This document shows, piece after piece, positions 6,388 through 18,125 of a stretch of DNA of 64,000 nt; position 1 is the stretch's first letter, and every line of letters begins with the position of its first letter. This stretch comes from Synechococcus sp. PCC 7336. Its GTDB lineage: Bacteria > Cyanobacteriota > Cyanobacteriia > Thermostichales > PCC-7336. Below the pieces are notes generated by a model. It saw nothing but the letters and a program-made list of their open reading frames with translations. It was not told where the DNA came from and did no database searches. The stretch spans positions 4,152,008-4,216,007 of the forward strand of contig NZ_CM001776.1 in NCBI RefSeq assembly GCF_000332275.1, given 5' to 3'. Both the position numbers and the translations under genes were made by a program.

Positions 6388-6921
6388 ATGTTCTCCACTG
6401 CCCCTTCGGACCTCATGATTGCGGCTGTGACTCAAACATTGGCAGAGCTGCTCTCGGCTGGAAGCTCCTCAATCGACCCCGAGCATATCCACATTGGCAG
6501 TCCTCGCAGCCAATCGAAACAGAATGCTGGCCTGAATTTGTACTGTTATGACCTGCGCGCCCGGTCTGCCACACTTGCAGACCGCGCTACAGAAGCAGTA
6601 CCCGAAAGCTTTGCGATTTCTTTTCTGATTAGCGCCTGGGGATTTACAGCCTTAGGAGAGCAGCAGATTCTCTCCGATGCCCTCTTGCTGCTATGGAAAT
6701 ACCGCGTTCTACCCGATGGTGTCCTCGCTCCCACTCTGCGGGGACGCGGTCAGTTGCGGTTGCACGTCGCCACAGAAGAGCAGGTCGATCTGCCAGGACT
6801 GTGGCTGGCTTTAGGGGTTCCCCTACGGCCGTCCCTCTCCGTCAAGGTGATAGTCCCGACCCATCGTCAGACTGCACCGTCCCTGAAGCGATCGCCCTCA
6901 GCAGCACTCGCTCCGCCCTAA
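6388..6921 (+). CDS. DUF4255 (Pvc16-type) protein, short form
   Basis: A 177-residue protein, essentially a single Pvc16 N-terminal domain: helix (IAAVTQTLAELLSAG), then GLNLYCYDL, then ISFLISAWG, then QILSDALLLLWKYRVLP. The last 20 residues are a proline- and serine-rich tail. It starts the rightward half of the cluster and precedes the sheath gene by 100 bp, as DUF4255 genes do in many eCIS loci. It is a paralogue of the protein at 2535 but lacks its long beta-rich extension. An alternative start at the internal ATG (6415) would remove nine residues. Confidence 0.8.
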   Translation: MFSTAPSDLMIAAVTQTLAELLSAGSSSIDPEHIHIGSPRSQSKQNAGLNLYCYDLRARSATLADRATEAVPESFAISFLISAWGFTALGEQQILSDALLLLWKYRVLPDGVLAPTLRGRGQLRLHVATEEQVDLPGLWLALGVPLRPSLSVKVIVPTHRQTAPSLKRSPSAALAPP

Positions 6922-7021: not shown

Positions 7022-8713
7022 ATGCCATTAGATTACTTTGCCCCAGGCGTTTACGTTGAAGAAGTCGACCGGGGCGCTCGCCCGATTGCAGGGGTCAGTC
7101 TCAGCGTCGCAGGATTCATTGGGTTTACCGAGGCCATCCGGGGGGATGCCGAACTGTTTAAACCCATGATGATTACCAACTGGAGTCAGTTCCTGGAATA
7201 TTTTGGCAAACCCGACTCCGAACATCCCGGCTTTACCGACTTTGATGCCTACTTGCCCTTTGCGGTGCGCGGCTGGTTCGACAACGGTGGCGGACGCTGT
7301 TGGGTGGCCAGCATTGGCACGCTCGAGCCCGGTGCTGCAAAACCCGCGCTGGAAGACACCGGCACTAAATTACTGACTGCGGGCAGTCGTCCTGCGTTAC
7401 AGTTCAATCTGCGCAACGAAGACGATACAGAAATCGTTGTCGAGATTTCCGACAGCTCGCCCAAACCGCCAGCGGCAGGCGACGAGCCGCCCCTCGACAC
7501 GGGTGAATACTTTAAAGTGACGCTCAAGCAGGCCGGAAACATCCTCGAGGTCGATGGAGCGCCCTGCGTATTCGAGCATCTGACGATGGACGATGCTGCC
7601 AGCGGTACCGTAGCCGATTATGTCGTGGCGGTCTTGAACGAGGAGGACAACAACCCCTACGTTCAAGCCACCGATCTGAGCGGGCCGGGTAGACCCCTCG
7701 CCCAACGTCCGGCTAATGGAGCCTATCCAGTCGAAGGGCCGCCCCCCTTTATCGAGCAAGTCAGCCAATTGACGCGCGGCATTCACGGTTCGCGGGCCGA
7801 TCGCAAGGGCTTGCAGGGGATCTTTGAGATTGATGACATTGCCATGATTGCCTGCCCCGATCTGATGTGGGCTTTCGAGCAAGCATTGCTCGACATCGAT
7901 CAGGTCCACGGCGTCATGGAAGCGATGTTGAGCTACTGCGAAAATTCGTTCCCCGGCCCCCCCTTCCGCATGGCTGTGCTCGATCCGCCTCCCATTAAGA
8001 ATGGCGAAGTGGTCTCGCCTGCAGCTCAAAAGCCGCAGCACGTAGACGAGTGGCTGACCAGTTTCAACCGCCGTTCGATGTTCGGTGCTGTCTACTATCC
8101 GTGGATTAAAGTGCCGAATCCAGCCAATGCAGGCAAGCCGATCCTGGTGCCCCCTTGCGGTCACATGATGGGCATTTGGTGCCGCACCGACCAAGATCGA
8201 GGGGTGTTTAAGGCCCCTGCCAATGAAACCCCTAGAGGCGTAATTGGTTTGGCTTACGAAACCAACATGCGCGAGCAAGAATTGCTCAATCCCAAGGGGA
8301 TCAACTGCATCCGCAACTTCTCCAGTTACAACCGGGGCTTTAAGGTCTGGGGGGCGCGCACGCTGGTGGAACCCGACAATATTCAATGGCGCTATATCAG
8401 CGTGCGGCGACTGCTCAGCTACATCGAAAAATCGATTGAGATGGGGACGCAGTGGGTGGTGTTCGAACCCAACGATCCCGACCTGTGGGCTCGCGTGTCC
8501 CGCTCTGTCAGCAGCTTCTTAGAGGGCCTGTGGCGAGATGGGGCGTTATTTGGCGGCTCTCCTGCCGAAGCCTTCTATGTCAAGTGCGATGGCGAACTGA
8601 ACACCCAAGACACGATTATGAAAGGTCGTCTCTATGTCGAGGTCGGGGTTTGCCCGGTGCGTCCGGCTGAATTTGTCATCTTCCGTATCAGCCAGTGGGC
8701 TCCGAACCAGTAG
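7022..8713 (+). CDS. Contractile tail sheath protein (Afp2-4/Pvc2-4-like)
   Basis: A 563-residue protein beginning PLDYFAPGVYVEEVDRGARP, the usual start of phage and eCIS sheath subunits, followed by GVSLSVAGFIGFT. The C-terminal half carries the conserved sheath core: RGVIGLAYE, INCIRNFSSYNRGFKVWGAR, YISVRRLLSYIEKSIE and, near the end, YVEVGVCPVRPAEFVIFRIS. A strong Shine-Dalgarno (AAGGAGG) lies 8 bp before the ATG. The sheath contracts to drive the tube through a target membrane. Only one sheath gene is present here, whereas Afp and PVC loci have several. Confidence 0.95.
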   Translation: MPLDYFAPGVYVEEVDRGARPIAGVSLSVAGFIGFTEAIRGDAELFKPMMITNWSQFLEYFGKPDSEHPGFTDFDAYLPFAVRGWFDNGGGRCWVASIGTLEPGAAKPALEDTGTKLLTAGSRPALQFNLRNEDDTEIVVEISDSSPKPPAAGDEPPLDTGEYFKVTLKQAGNILEVDGAPCVFEHLTMDDAASGTVADYVVAVLNEEDNNPYVQATDLSGPGRPLAQRPANGAYPVEGPPPFIEQVSQLTRGIHGSRADRKGLQGIFEIDDIAMIACPDLMWAFEQALLDIDQVHGVMEAMLSYCENSFPGPPFRMAVLDPPPIKNGEVVSPAAQKPQHVDEWLTSFNRRSMFGAVYYPWIKVPNPANAGKPILVPPCGHMMGIWCRTDQDRGVFKAPANETPRGVIGLAYETNMREQELLNPKGINCIRNFSSYNRGFKVWGARTLVEPDNIQWRYISVRRLLSYIEKSIEMGTQWVVFEPNDPDLWARVSRSVSSFLEGLWRDGALFGGSPAEAFYVKCDGELNTQDTIMKGRLYVEVGVCPVRPAEFVIFRISQWAPNQ

Positions 8714-8761: not shown

Positions 8762-9259
8762 ATGGCAGAACTGACTAAACCGATTGCCCCCAGTAGTTTT
8801 TATTTGGAAATCTCGGGGGTGGTGGAGGGAGACAAATCCGTCTTCAAAAGCGTCACGATCCCCGACTACACCCCCAAAGTGCAGGGGGGACAACAGGCGA
8901 TCGGCAGCACCAAAGATGGCAAAACCATTTGGCAAGTCAACTCCGCTGGGTTTGAAGGATTGTTTACGATTGACTGCGTTTGCATCGCTAGCGGCGATGG
9001 CGGCAGCACTAGCAAAGAGCTATACACGTGGTTTGAGAGTTGTTTGCCCAGTTCCAATGGCGGCAAAGGCAAGTGGGATGACAACAAAAAAGAAGGCAGT
9101 ATTACCGCCTACGATTCCGACGGTAACGAAATTGCCAAGTGGCAGTTTGTGGAAGCTTGGCCGTCTAAATACAAGTGTGCCGATTTAGATGTCACGGGCG
9201 ATGGTTACATTGAGGAAACCTATACCCTGACCTGCGAGAAGTTCAATCGCACGATGTAG
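8762..9259 (+). CDS. Tail tube protein 1 (T4 gp19-like)
   Basis: A 165-residue inner-tube subunit. It has the typical short N-terminal strand (SSFYLEISG), the VFKSVTIPDY loop, the central KELYTWFESCLPS helix and the closing YIEETYTLTCEKFNRT strand. AAGGAG precedes the ATG. It is the first of three tube genes that share this outline but have clearly diverged. It carries an extra G/S-rich loop (GDGGSTSK) and a lysine-rich stretch (NGGKGKWDDNKKEG). Tube subunits stack into the lumen that carries cargo. Confidence 0.9.
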   Translation: MAELTKPIAPSSFYLEISGVVEGDKSVFKSVTIPDYTPKVQGGQQAIGSTKDGKTIWQVNSAGFEGLFTIDCVCIASGDGGSTSKELYTWFESCLPSSNGGKGKWDDNKKEGSITAYDSDGNEIAKWQFVEAWPSKYKCADLDVTGDGYIEETYTLTCEKFNRTM

Positions 9260-9324
9260 GGTCTTTCACGATGTAGCTTTGATGTAGTTTTCGGTCGAGT
9301 TTGAGGCCATTCAGGAGACCAACA

Positions 9325-9807
9325 GTGGTTCAGTATTTAACTAGCTCGAAGTTCTATTTCGAAATTGACGGGATAACCTCTCTCCTGGTCAAAACCGTCA
9401 CTGGCCCTGAAATTGAAATGGAAGTGGCTGGCGGCGATGCTCCCATTGGCGTCACTAAAGATGCCAAAACCCAAACCCAAGCAGTGGTTGGTGGGGTCAA
9501 ATACAACAGCACCGTAACGCTCACCTATGTTGCTGGCAACGAGTCCGATCAGAAAAAACTGTCGGACTGGTACAACGACTGCCACCCCGACTCGTTTACG
9601 GGGGGGGCTTCGAAGGCAATGGATAGCCGCAAAACAGGCTCGCTGGTGATTTACGATCCCAACGGCAGTGAGGCCATGCGGTTCAACTATACGGATCTGT
9701 TCCCCGGCACTAAAAAACAGATCGGCAGTCTGTCGGTGGACAGTGGCGGTCAACTGGCTGAAGATACGCTGGAGCTATACTTCACCAAGGTTGTGCGGGC
9801 CGCGTAA
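9325..9807 (+). CDS. Tail tube protein 2 (T4 gp19-like)
   Basis: A 160-residue tube subunit read from GTG at 9325, chosen because AGGAGA lies 6 bp upstream and because homologues begin near VQYLTSSKFYFEIDG. A TTG at 9301 would add eight residues without family support. It has the gp19 outline: start strand, K-T-V-T-G-P loop, helix KKLSDWYNDCHPDS and end strand DTLELYFTKVV. It lies 65 bp below tube protein 1 and 17 bp above tube protein 3. The different tube proteins may occupy different positions in the tube, as in Afp1 and Afp5. Confidence 0.88.
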   Translation: MVQYLTSSKFYFEIDGITSLLVKTVTGPEIEMEVAGGDAPIGVTKDAKTQTQAVVGGVKYNSTVTLTYVAGNESDQKKLSDWYNDCHPDSFTGGASKAMDSRKTGSLVIYDPNGSEAMRFNYTDLFPGTKKQIGSLSVDSGGQLAEDTLELYFTKVVRAA

Positions 9808-9824: not shown

Positions 9825-10322
9825 ATGGCCACATTTCCCGAAATTCTCACCAACTCCCGCTTCTATCTGGAGCTCAAGCTGGATGGCAGCAAAGAGCCGG
9901 TGGATGGTTACTTTATGGAGTGCAGCGGGTTTCAATACTCGCAAGAGGTAACTGAGATTGTGGAGGTTACCCCGCAAAAGTGGGGTAAGAATGGCAATTC
10001 GCGAGGGCGCTTGGCGCGCACGAAGATCCCGGGTCATGTCACCTTTAGCAATCTCACCTTGAAGCGCGGTCTCACCACGTCGAGTAGCTTGTGGGATTGG
10101 GTCGAGAAGGTGGAGGAGGGCAATTGGAGCGAACAGCGGCAGAAGGGATCGCTGACGATTTACAATCAAGCAGCCAAGCAGCAGGTGCGATGGGAGTTTC
10201 AGCGGGCTTGGCCAGTCAGCTATCAGATCTCGGATCTAGATGTCAAAAGTGGCGACTTCAATATCGAAGAGATCGAACTTGCCGTTGAAGATCTCAGACG
10301 CGTTCGGGTACCAGCATCGTGA
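9825..10322 (+). CDS. Tail tube protein 3 / tube initiator-like
   Basis: A 165-residue gp19-like protein: SRFYLELKLDG, GYFMECSGFQYSQEV, LTLKRGLTTSSSLWDWVEKV, RWEFQRAWPVSYQISDLD and FNIEEIELAVEDLRRV. The L-K-R-G and W-D-W pattern with the R-A-W-P motif is typical of the tube-like protein that follows the main tube genes in eCIS clusters. The TGA stop overlaps the ATG of the next gene. The initiator role is an inference from gene order. Confidence 0.88.
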   Translation: MATFPEILTNSRFYLELKLDGSKEPVDGYFMECSGFQYSQEVTEIVEVTPQKWGKNGNSRGRLARTKIPGHVTFSNLTLKRGLTTSSSLWDWVEKVEEGNWSEQRQKGSLTIYNQAAKQQVRWEFQRAWPVSYQISDLDVKSGDFNIEEIELAVEDLRRVRVPAS

Positions 10323-10705
10323 TGCAACTCAATAACCCTTTGAACTTGGAGGGATCGCCCCAGCAAGACACTGCACCGCCAGAGCAGCGTCGGAGGCCGC
10401 AAGTGGCTGGGCTGCAAACGGAGTTCGAGTTTGAATTGCCGAAGGGGTATGTGGATGCGGAGGGGACGCTCCATCGTCAGGGGGTGATGCGGTTGGCTCG
10501 GGCGATGGACGAGATCGTACCGCTGCGCGATCCGCGCGTGAAGGCCAATCCGGCTTATGCCACGGTGGTGATTTTGGCACGGGTGATTGTGCGGTTGGGG
10601 GCTTTGAGCGAGGTGTCTCCAGCCGCGATCGAAGATTTATTTGCCTGCGATTTGAATTATTTGCAGAAGTTTTACCGTCAGATTAACGAATTGGAAGAGG
10701 ATTAG
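10322..10705 (+). CDS. Tail-assembly-chaperone-like protein A
   Basis: A 127-residue protein whose ATG overlaps the TGA of tube protein 3. The conserved part runs FEFELPKGYVDAEGTLHRQG, MRLARAMDEI, then VILARVIVRLGAL and AIEDLFACDLNYLQKFYRQI. A beta-rich start followed by two helices, with L-x-x-x-D before the last helix, resembles phage tail assembly chaperones (lambda gpG, Mu gp41 types). It is a paralogue of the next gene but lacks its C-terminal cysteine pair. The chaperone role is inferred. Confidence 0.6.
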   Translation: MQLNNPLNLEGSPQQDTAPPEQRRRPQVAGLQTEFEFELPKGYVDAEGTLHRQGVMRLARAMDEIVPLRDPRVKANPAYATVVILARVIVRLGALSEVSPAAIEDLFACDLNYLQKFYRQINELEED

Positions 10706-10742: not shown

Positions 10743-11147
10743 ATGACCCCATTGGCCCTATCGGAACCTGCGAGTTTGGACTTACCCACCACAGCATTTG
10801 AGTTCCAGTTGCCGCGCGGTTTGCTGGACGATGCCGGACAGGTACACCAGCAGGGACGCATGCGCTTGGCGACGGCGCGGGACGAGTTGGCGATGCAGAA
10901 AGATGTCAGGGTGAGGCAAGAGCCTGCCTATGGAACTCTCATCCTGTTAGCCCGCACGATCGCCCAGCTAGGCTCGCTGACCGCTGTGACTGCCGAAGAT
11001 TTAGAGAATCTCTTTGCCAGCGATTTGGCCTATTTGCGCGAGTTCTACAACCGCATCAATCAGCAGGGGCACCCGTACGTTCCGACCCAGTGCCCCCAAT
11101 GCAGTCACGCGTTTGAGGTGGAGTTAACACTGTCGGGGGAGTCTTAG
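10743..11147 (+). CDS. Tail-assembly-chaperone-like protein B, with CPxC tail
   Basis: A 134-residue paralogue of the preceding protein (FEFQLPRGLLDDAGQVHQQG, MRLATARDELAMQ, LILLARTIAQLG, LENLFASDLAYLREFYNRIN). It adds a C-terminal CPQC motif, possibly half of a zinc site. It ends at TAG 11147 just after a run of five G residues. The reading frame one base back continues directly into a DUF6760 sequence, so a -1 frameshifted product of about 186 residues is possible, as in lambda G/GT. Placement after the tube genes fits a chaperone. Confidence 0.65.
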   Translation: MTPLALSEPASLDLPTTAFEFQLPRGLLDDAGQVHQQGRMRLATARDELAMQKDVRVRQEPAYGTLILLARTIAQLGSLTAVTAEDLENLFASDLAYLREFYNRINQQGHPYVPTQCPQCSHAFEVELTLSGES

Positions 11148-11302
11148 GCTACCCCTCGGAACAACTGCACCAGGAGGTAGCCTTTCTCGCCCTGCACTGT
11201 CATTGGTCGCTGCAGGAAATTCTGGACTTGGAACATCGCGATCGCCGTCGCTGGGTGCAAGAGGTCGCCCAGCTACGGGGGCGAGGGAGTGGCGAGGGCT
11301 AA
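11117..11302 (+). CDS. DUF6760-like small eCIS protein without its own start codon
   Basis: The conserved part starts GYPSEQLHQEVAFLALHCHW at 11147 and continues with WSLQEILDLEHRDRRRWVQEV; 51 residues run to the TAA at 11302. This matches the small DUF6760 proteins of eCIS clusters. The frame is open from 11117 but has no standard start codon. It may be made as a -1 frameshift extension of the protein before it, or from an unusual start. The TAA overlaps the ATG of the SAM hydrolase (TAATG), so translation is coupled onward. The short W- and R-rich helical form resembles the T extension of phage gpGT. Confidence 0.6.
   Translation, partial: GGVNTVGGVLGYPSEQLHQEVAFLALHCHWSLQEILDLEHRDRRRWVQEVAQLRGRGSGEG
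11134..11141 (+). other. Candidate -1 frameshift site (CGGGGGAG)
   Basis: In the upstream frame the codons are TCG GGG GAG TCT TAG. Slipping back one base on GGG re-pairs perfectly and moves the ribosome into GGA GTC TTA GGC TAC, the DUF6760 frame. That frame has no ATG, GTG or TTG between its upstream stop (11114) and the conserved G-Y-P start at 11147. It is not a classical X-XXY-YYZ heptamer, so the efficiency is uncertain. Confidence 0.45.
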
Positions 11303-16655: not shown

Positions 16656-18125
16656 CTAGGGAGAGAGTCGCGCTTTCCCCCAGCGATTTTGCAAATACCA
16701 CTCTGCTGTATGCGGGCACCAGGCTTTGAAGTGAGGCATCATCAGCTCGCACAAATGCCGAATTTCCGTCTGAGCATCTGCTTTGGCCCGCAAATCTAAA
16801 AAGTGCATCAGGCTGCGGCAGTTAAACGACACCACAAAATGTTGGCGAATGCCGTAACCCACCACATTGCGAGCATCCTCATACGGCACCCCGCACTCAT
16901 TGACCAAGCGGTGATAGGCGATCGCCTGATTGCGATATTGCTCCAACACAATCTCGATCGCTTCGGGGGCGATCGGCTTCATCCCCTGCCGCGTTTTCGC
17001 CTGCCCCTGCGCAATCGTCTCCGGCAGGTAAAACAGTTTGTCTAGCCCTGCCCGATCCGGCTGAACTCCTTGCTGCAACTGAGCTCCAACCTCCGCCACA
17101 TTGGCCCCCGTATAGCGGAAAGAATTATGAACCACAACCCCATTCGCAATAAAGTTGTGCCACGGACCATCCACTTCGATATCGTAGCTGGGTTGCATAC
17201 CTAGGTACTCCACCTTCGCGACTCGGACAGGATGAGACACGAATCGCCTGCCGGGAGCCAAAGGCTTGGGAGACCAACTATCAACCGAAGCAATTGGCTG
17301 ATAGCCTTGGGCAAACTCCTGCTCTAAACAGCCTGCTTCAATCTGCTGACGCAACCAATGGCGATCTCGATATAACTCATTTCCTGACACTAAAATGCCA
17401 TTGCAGGTCAGATAGGAAAAACGACTGAAACTTACCACACGATTGTTGGCATCGACTTCTAACTCCACAGCATCCGCCATCCGCTGCCACCCATCGGGAG
17501 TATGCAAACGATGGTTAACGGTACAATTTAGTGTTTTGCCATCTGCCAAGGTCAGCCGGTAGATGGGCTGAATGCCACTAGACATGATAGTTTTGATGTG
17601 GCCTGCCTCAAATTCACCTGTCGTTTCATTCAAAACTCGCAGGCGCATCTTTTGTATACGACGCTTACAATCTCGACGATACGTACCGGGAGGTTCTCCC
17701 TTTCTGCCCCGAATGTGCCTTTCCCGAATAGCAATTTCGCCCTGCTCCCAAAGTTCGTAGAGTTCGCCAAGGGTCTTCTTCAGTTTCGAGCCAGTGTGAC
17801 CTAATTTATCCACAAATGTAATTTCGGTGTTAGCAGCCAAACATTGCACGTCAAATGATACTCCAACTCTATGAGTTCGAGCCTGTTGCATAACCGCATG
17901 AGGAAAATTTCCAACTCCAAATGTAATTTGTGGGTGCTCTAAAGGACCGTAATGGCCTCGATTTCCCTCTAGCAAGCGCTTGATGACGACTTCGCCATAA
18001 TTCTCTGGCAACGGGGACGAAGGGGTAATATACTCCGACGAATAGTCTTGGTGCATCGCCTGGTAAATCACCCGCTCGGGATCGGGGGTTTGGTTGAGAA
18101 CGACGACTTCGAATAAGGAATCCAT
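16656..18125 (-). CDS. thyX: Flavin-dependent thymidylate synthase with in-frame intein
   Basis: A 489-residue precursor. ThyX makes dTMP from dUMP using FAD, NADPH and methylene-tetrahydrofolate. Residues 1-94 and 335-489 form a 249-residue ThyX. The ThyX signature is split: RTHRVGVSFDVQ ends at 94 and SFRYTG resumes at 335, so splicing rebuilds R-x-H-R-x(6)-D-x-Q-S-x-R-Y. The second half has the conserved R-N-V-V, FVVSFNCRSLMHFLDLR and a final helix. Residues 95-334 are an intein, described separately. The enzyme must be non-functional until spliced, because the insertion interrupts the substrate-binding motif. Confidence 0.95.
   Translation of the reverse strand: MDSLFEVVVLNQTPDPERVIYQAMHQDYSSEYITPSSPLPENYGEVVIKRLLEGNRGHYGPLEHPQITFGVGNFPHAVMQQARTHRVGVSFDVQCLAANTEITFVDKLGHTGSKLKKTLGELYELWEQGEIAIRERHIRGRKGEPPGTYRRDCKRRIQKMRLRVLNETTGEFEAGHIKTIMSSGIQPIYRLTLADGKTLNCTVNHRLHTPDGWQRMADAVELEVDANNRVVSFSRFSYLTCNGILVSGNELYRDRHWLRQQIEAGCLEQEFAQGYQPIASVDSWSPKPLAPGRRFVSHPVRVAKVEYLGMQPSYDIEVDGPWHNFIANGVVVHNSFRYTGANVAEVGAQLQQGVQPDRAGLDKLFYLPETIAQGQAKTRQGMKPIAPEAIEIVLEQYRNQAIAYHRLVNECGVPYEDARNVVGYGIRQHFVVSFNCRSLMHFLDLRAKADAQTEIRHLCELMMPHFKAWCPHTAEWYLQNRWGKARLSP
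17124..17843 (-). other. Intein within ThyX (240 residues, mini-intein type)
   Basis: Starts at C95 of the precursor (CLAANTEITFVDKLG, block A). Block B is LTLADGKTLNCTVNHRLHTP, with the T-x-x-H motif. Block F/G is YDIEVDGPWHNFIANGVVVHN, ending in the required H-N just before Ser 335 (the +1 nucleophile). No LAGLIDADG motif is present; the centre keeps a short piece (NELYRDRHWLRQQIE) that looks like the remnant of an extra DNA-binding part. It should still splice, but homing is probably lost. Confidence 0.92.

Follow-up and report, generated by a model that had tools for sequence, protein, structure and literature searches.

The window (the whole 64,000-nucleotide stretch of Synechococcus sp. 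PCC 7336 DNA analyzed here) contains, between positions 6388 and 11302, part of an eCIS: a Pvc16-like cap, a sheath, three tube-like proteins, two ORFs resembling tail assembly chaperones (TACs), and a frame encoding a DUF6760 domain (Table 1). We assign the locus to the eCIS from its predicted proteins, because sheath, tube, and Pvc16-type cap genes are found together. The gene order tube-TAC-extension holds, and no tape-measure gene follows DUF6760 within the window. The Baseplate_J matches of this genome are ∼1.5 Mb distant, and the cluster is therefore probably split. TAC-DUF6760 pairs with no sheath or tube genes nearby were also seen at L073 and L153 (the latter next to DUF4157 proteins and an AAA ATPase); these are split eCIS clusters in cyanobacteria. 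Judged by eye, the next gene after the DUF6760 frame resembles a SAM hydroxide adenosyltransferase, and a ThyX-like thymidylate synthase ORF at 16656-18125 is apparently broken by an intein-like insert (CLAANTEITF...VVHNS).

Table 1. Features of the eCIS segment and of the overlap between the TAC-like ORF and DUF6760 (positions in the window)
Feature	Positions	Strand	Evidence or detail
Pvc16-like cap protein	6388..6921	+	PF14065, E 9e-18
Contractile sheath	7022..8713	+	PF17482, E 6e-19; PF04984, E 9e-11
Inner tube-like protein	8762..9259	+	PF06841, E 3e-12
Inner tube-like protein	9301..9807	+	PF06841, E 6e-10
Inner tube protein, T4 gp19-like, Cis5/Cis1-like	9825..10322	+	PF06841, E 2e-32; TIGR02241 (NCBIfam); PDB relatives including Anabaena All3324
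Second TAC-like ORF, 128 aa, GTG start	10319..10705	+	phrog_508, E 3.9e-5
0-frame ORF, TAC-like (TAC-N), 134 aa, 14.9 kDa; C-terminal zinc-ribbon-like CPQC motif, ends ..LTLSGES*	10743..11147	+	phrog_508, E 1.5e-10
DUF6760 frame (putative TAC-C extension), −1 to ORF 10743-11147	11117..11302	+	PF20546, E 3.3e-11
Putative slippery heptamer G GGG GAG; P-site GGG to GGG, A-site GAG to GGA via G:U re-pairing	11135..11141	+	Sequence; relatives
0-frame stop TAG, one codon past the slip site	11145..11147	+	Sequence
Predicted hairpin	11146..11183	+	AGGCTACC (11146-11153) pairs with GGTAGCCT (11176-11183); inner pairs 11154-11156 with 11172-11174; bulged A at 11175

The two TAC-like ORFs stand in tandem and are apparently paralogues; the zinc-ribbon tail and the putative frameshift extension belong to the second only, ORF 10319-10705 having neither. 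Where the second ORF overlaps DUF6760, the 0-frame reads CTG TCG GGG GAG TCT TAG and the −1 frame reads GTC GGG GGA GTC TTA GGC TAC. An earlier sequence-only reading of this DNA had the DUF6760 frame beginning at the upstream stop codon, which we confirm: it opens after TGA (11114-11116), in frame −1 to the chaperone-like ORF, and closes at TAA (11300-11302). The same reading found no ATG, GTG, or TTG in this frame; that is correct for the region before the domain and for the domain's first half, but TTG (11228) and GTG (11255) do occur inside the domain. Ahead of 11205, near-cognate codons are limited to the CTGs at 11165 and 11192. The frame matches PF20546 at 43.5 bits (cutoff, 27). Its post-slip part comprises 53 codons (11141-11299), and the computed fusion protein would have 186 aa (21.0 kDa), with a predicted junction of ..LTLSGEVLGYPSEQ.. 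that reads ..LTLSGE-VLGYPSEQ...

Conservation of the putative slip site and hairpin

Relatives were gathered by protein-level searches only, so that nucleotide conservation was not built into the set. They came from cyanobacterial genomes, one scan of ∼85,000 species genomes, viral contigs, plasmids and phages, and phylum-level samples centered on an actinobacterium, a chloroflexote, and an archaeon. The sequence-only reading had suggested looking in homologous eCIS loci for the same overlap and G-run, and these do recur: 171 of 174 distinct loci, from at least 10 phyla including archaea, carry a slippery heptamer in the correct phase, a tally that ignores shared ancestry while spanning three heptamer types and that leaves out five phylum-sample loci with no recognizable DUF6760 motif (L173, L174, L175, L178, and L199). 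The heptamers are GGGGGRR (n = 156), GGGAAAN (n = 9), and TTTTTTN (n = 6). The GGGAAAN set combines haloarchaeal GGGAAAY sites (GGGAAAT/C, at a different distance) with two in-frame TAC-DUF6760 fusions, and the TTTTTTN set consists of six phage-like contigs (L144-L149) with TTTTTTC or TTTTTTT ∼25 codons upstream. The slip sequence thus varies (GGGGGRR, GGGAAAY, TTTTTTN), but the −1 relation is constant throughout. The three loci with no canonical slip site (L176, L179, and L212) each have their own ATG or GTG.

In the window, the GGGGG that had been singled out (11135-11139) is indeed present and can be refined to a heptamer followed by a hairpin. The site is the window's sole exact match to GGGGGARNNNNNRGCTACC; allowing up to one mismatch yields two sites versus 0.08 expected. 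As background, GGGGGRR occurs at 11 of 19,140 same-phase positions upstream within the same ORFs, while 152 of the 156 GGGGGRR heptamers sit exactly 15 nt ahead of a Tyr codon. The first 122 nonredundant loci align without gaps from the slip site to the domain. Among them, and counting from the conserved Tyr, GGGGG spans −15 to −11 in 120, the following two bases are purines in all, and the 0-frame stop falls at −5 or −8 in 110. The wobble bases of two neighboring Gly codons are fixed: −13 is G in 122/122, and −10 is A or G in 122/122, never C or T. Since any base at these positions would keep Gly-Gly in the DUF6760 frame, the constraint points to the ribosome rather than the protein; with the bases found there, the 0-frame A-site codon (GAR or GGR) remains re-pairable after a −1 slip.

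The predicted hairpin begins 4 nt after the heptamer in the window and 4 to 5 nt after it across relatives. The core 6-bp stem is fully paired in 96% of native sequences versus 15% after codons were swapped for synonyms used in the same locus, and mean MFE is −20.9 kcal/mol for native sequences versus −11.7 kcal/mol for the synonymous-randomized ones. Stem codons are fixed (TAC in 119, GAG in 121, and GTA in 112 of the 122 loci), and RNAalifold, given 55 thinned diverse sequences, recovers the stem unaided. To the outer pair, 11147-11182, the codon of a variable residue contributes its first base and an Ala codon its third; the pair is Watson-Crick in 91/122 loci, where the best of 100,000 permutations, which ignore relatedness, reached 80. 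Pair counts gave 10 compensatory cells compared with 4.1 in shuffles, with one slid control having more; because the stem is near-invariant, true covariation is confined to the outer pair and a few others. Covariation alone is weak evidence for the hairpin, and the argument for it rests on the synonymous constraint. An Rfam search of the element gave no match up to E 1. We also asked whether GAGGAGGT, within DUF6760, might be an internal Shine-Dalgarno sequence serving an ATT or ATC start, and rejected this: no proper start follows, and its pairing with GGCTACC fits the fixed codons better.

Probable frameshifting and its alternatives

We put at about 93% the probability that one gene here encodes two proteins, a short TAC-N and a −1 frameshift product, TAC-NC, in which the TAC is fused to DUF6760. 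That a −1 slip on GGGGG joins a chaperone to DUF6760 was the core of the sequence-only reading, and it is now strongly supported by the phase-correct heptamers, the constraint on the stem, and the existence of in-frame fusions. In the model that we infer, from the slip and its efficiency through tRNA behavior to the chaperone role and its partner, most ribosomes would translate 10743-11147 and end at TAG, yielding TAC-N (14.9 kDa). The hairpin would slow a fraction of them with GGG in the P site and GAG in the A site. On slipping one base back on G GGG GAG, Gly-tRNA would move from GGG to GGG and Glu-tRNA from GAG to GGA, the latter with a G:U pair, and the slipped ribosomes would read on into DUF6760 to make TAC-NC (21.0 kDa). 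If lambda gpG/gpGT and P2 gpE/gpE+E′ are a guide, TAC-N may coat an elongated tail-core (tape-measure) protein, and TAC-NC may dock it and recruit tube subunits during eCIS assembly; by the same analogy, both forms would be absent from the finished particle.

DUF6760 is annotated in databases as a separate gene, and it could be made as one by translational coupling, with termination at the TAC stop followed by re-initiation on an overlapping start and GGGGGA acting as a Shine-Dalgarno-like sequence. A DUF6760-frame ATG, GTG, or TTG does lie within five codons of the Tyr in 18 of the 122 loci, some actinobacterial, some archaeal, and some from elsewhere, often as ATGA or GTGA across the 0-frame stop; such overlaps are seen in Haloferax, Rhizobium, Streptomyces clavuligerus, and L176/L179. 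However, such a codon is absent up to the Tyr in 77 loci, the window among them, and a further 27 have only distant ones; annotated DUF6760 starts include ATT in Pseudanabaena ABRG5-3 and ATA in Nostoc UHCC 0926. Moreover, 12 of the 122 loci have their 0-frame stop 7 to 28 nt past the Tyr, where the domain has already begun, and a Shine-Dalgarno role leaves unexplained the A/G-only base at −10, the GGGAAAY and TTTTTTC of other clades, and the in-frame fusions. Coupling as the explanation thus seems improbable. The sequence-only reading had named independent starts in close relatives as the evidence that would count against frameshifting; most loci (77/122) have none, but a minority do have them close by, and in some of those lineages coupled re-initiation may operate instead of, or besides, the slip.

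Even less probable is slippage by RNA polymerase, which would add or drop a G on the G-run and so produce some mRNAs with a fused frame. The site is a G homopolymer and reaches G8 in L085 and L095, but most sites stop at G5, and the purine that always comes next lets the A-site codon re-pair, and the haloarchaeal GGGAAAY is not a homopolymer. The hairpin, too, lies 4 to 5 nt downstream, the spacing of ribosomal frameshift sites, and is kept under synonymous constraint. That the overlap is a sequencing error or the relic of a DUF6760 gene once in frame or with its own start, as isolated relatives with a broken 0-frame (L002) might suggest, is refuted by conservation of the same geometry in nearly all loci, with strong constraint on both frames.

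Chaperone and DUF6760 form one unbroken ORF in two loci, L079 (from an Oscillatoriales MAG) and L116 (from Planktothricoides SR001). Both were seen to retain the hairpin and to carry GGGAAAG at the former slip site, a sequence that would be suited to slipping +1, not −1; here frameshifting may now yield the short form.

Kinship with phage tail assembly chaperones

Production of phage TACs by frameshifting is textbook knowledge, and the TACs of P2 and Mu are annotated as frameshifted. The 0-frame protein in the window is homologous to known TACs, as judged by its phrog_508 match, which 14 of 14 relatives share; Pfam TAC models match below threshold only (Phage_TAC_7, E 0.0015). Compared with viral models, its structure model (pLDDT 82) shows a weak likeness to T4-like proteins of the baseplate and of baseplate hub assembly (BFVD; best E 1.6e-5), and a Foldseek search of it against the PDB found nothing. 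The DUF6760 model has three helices (pLDDT 93), and among the viral proteins that it weakly matches are some named tape measure chaperone, tail assembly chaperone, and cyanophage Gp51. Two viruses, Myoviridae ctgXL3 and Leptospira phage LE4, each have separate proteins matching the TAC and DUF6760 models.

The closest parallel is P2, whose E/E+E′ likewise pairs a short TAC with a −1 extension between tube and tape-measure genes. DUF6760 aligns with P2 E′ (PF06528) in hhalign (85.6%; p 5.5e-6), gives sub-threshold hits to PF06528 (0.008 to 0.06), and shares with it an FHW..E motif. We hold with moderate confidence that the two are distant homologues, which bears out the earlier suggestion that DUF6760 resembles a T-type extension. 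P2 differs in slipping on T TTT TTG, in having its tape-measure gene T directly after, and in being a phage rather than an eCIS; DUF6760 differs from E′ in having about one extra helical turn before HW. Lambda G/GT is alike in that a −1 slip late in the chaperone ORF gives a longer form (PMC5009743), and its G GGA AAG type of site recurs as GGGAAAY in the haloarchaeal relatives; lambda has a siphovirus tail, and the likeness is one of slip logic.

The heptamer GGGGGAA is a known slip motif of phage TACs: the available excerpt of PMC10885494 (SEA-PHAGES TAC genes; PRFect) covers about a thousand phage TAC genes and gives for the identical heptamer the same G:U re-pairing explanation. Those systems are phages, not eCIS, and that excerpt does not mention a cross-phylum hairpin. 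In a Pseudomonas phage, Bise (L152:3709-4160), we noticed an unannotated extension in another frame (offset +1/−2) after the annotated TAC; by eye it resembles DUF6760 and E′, and the Mu −2 extension was likewise read by eye. No family scored for the Bise extension in a profile search; it is probably a Mu-like frameshift missed in annotation.

T4 encodes the two TAC forms as separate genes, and its gp26/gp51 were reportedly proposed as TACs by Vladimirov et al. in 2022. The TAC model's likeness to a T4-like baseplate protein and the DUF6760 model's faint likeness to cyanophage Gp51 recall this pair.

With eCIS and thylakoid-anchored CIS (AFP, PVC, AlgoCIS, Anabaena), the window shares Pvc16, sheath, and tube homologues, whereas the Cis6/Alg6 plug of those systems is a protein other than DUF6760. 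No eCIS chain in the solved structures matches the TAC or DUF6760 in sequence, which is what their absence from particles would predict; this is compatible with a chaperone role, if indirectly. We also weighed DUF6760 as the Cis6/Alg6/Afp6 spike plug and rejected that identity, because there is no PDB eCIS-chain hit and its three helices differ from the N-terminal strand and C-terminal helix described for Cis6/Alg6 in the available part of PMC8894135.

From the TAC match, the P2 E′ homology, the weak viral model matches, and the gene order in two phage-like contigs, the reading that we favor takes DUF6760 for the eCIS TAC-C extension and the predicted fusion for TAC-NC. In those contigs (L146 and L148, the two of the six TTTTTTN contigs whose tape-measure context was viewed), a TAC/TTTTTTN/DUF6760 module directly precedes a tape-measure gene (phrog_28, E 1e-66 and 3e-82). 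Frameshifted TACs are thus known in phages, and the eCIS case, as predicted here, is apparently new as far as open-access papers go: the available portions of papers on the Anabaena, AlgoCIS, PVC, and Streptomyces systems mention no frameshift, and our search of the open-access literature found no report of an eCIS frameshift and no mention of DUF6760.

A candidate tape measure and wider meaning

A recognized tape measure follows the module only in the phage-like L146 and L148; eCIS loci often have a second tube and a length-variable protein. In many of them, this poorly conserved protein (∼250 to 1080 aa) comes after the TAC-DUF6760 module and ends in a conserved motif like DVxRxADQVxRxLxRxLxVERERRG (L220:6635-8209 and L117:5009-6406; also L066, L070, L086, L104, L105, L106, and L120). 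Two examples scanned gave no informative Pfam or PHROG match. We consider it a candidate for an unrecognized eCIS tape measure. More tentatively still, and with somewhat more doubt than belief, we suggest that a single ancient frameshift cassette (G-run heptamer, 4- to 5-nt spacer, and near-invariant hairpin) traveled with eCIS between bacteria and archaea and sets the TAC-N:TAC-NC ratio for such a tape measure, the length-variable ERERRG gene. Streptomyces eCIS clusters are described, in the part of PMC10066040 available, as being without a typical tape measure; eCIS clusters such as these may still hold one to be found.

The frameshift reading accounts for the ATA and ATT starts annotated for DUF6760, or for its omission from annotation. 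It would assign this domain of unknown function a definite candidate role, that of the frameshift-made C-terminal extension of an eCIS tail chaperone. It would also mean that a rule of translational control from phage tails persists in domesticated injection machines of both bacteria and archaea, and a rule long assumed for phages becomes directly testable in eCIS.
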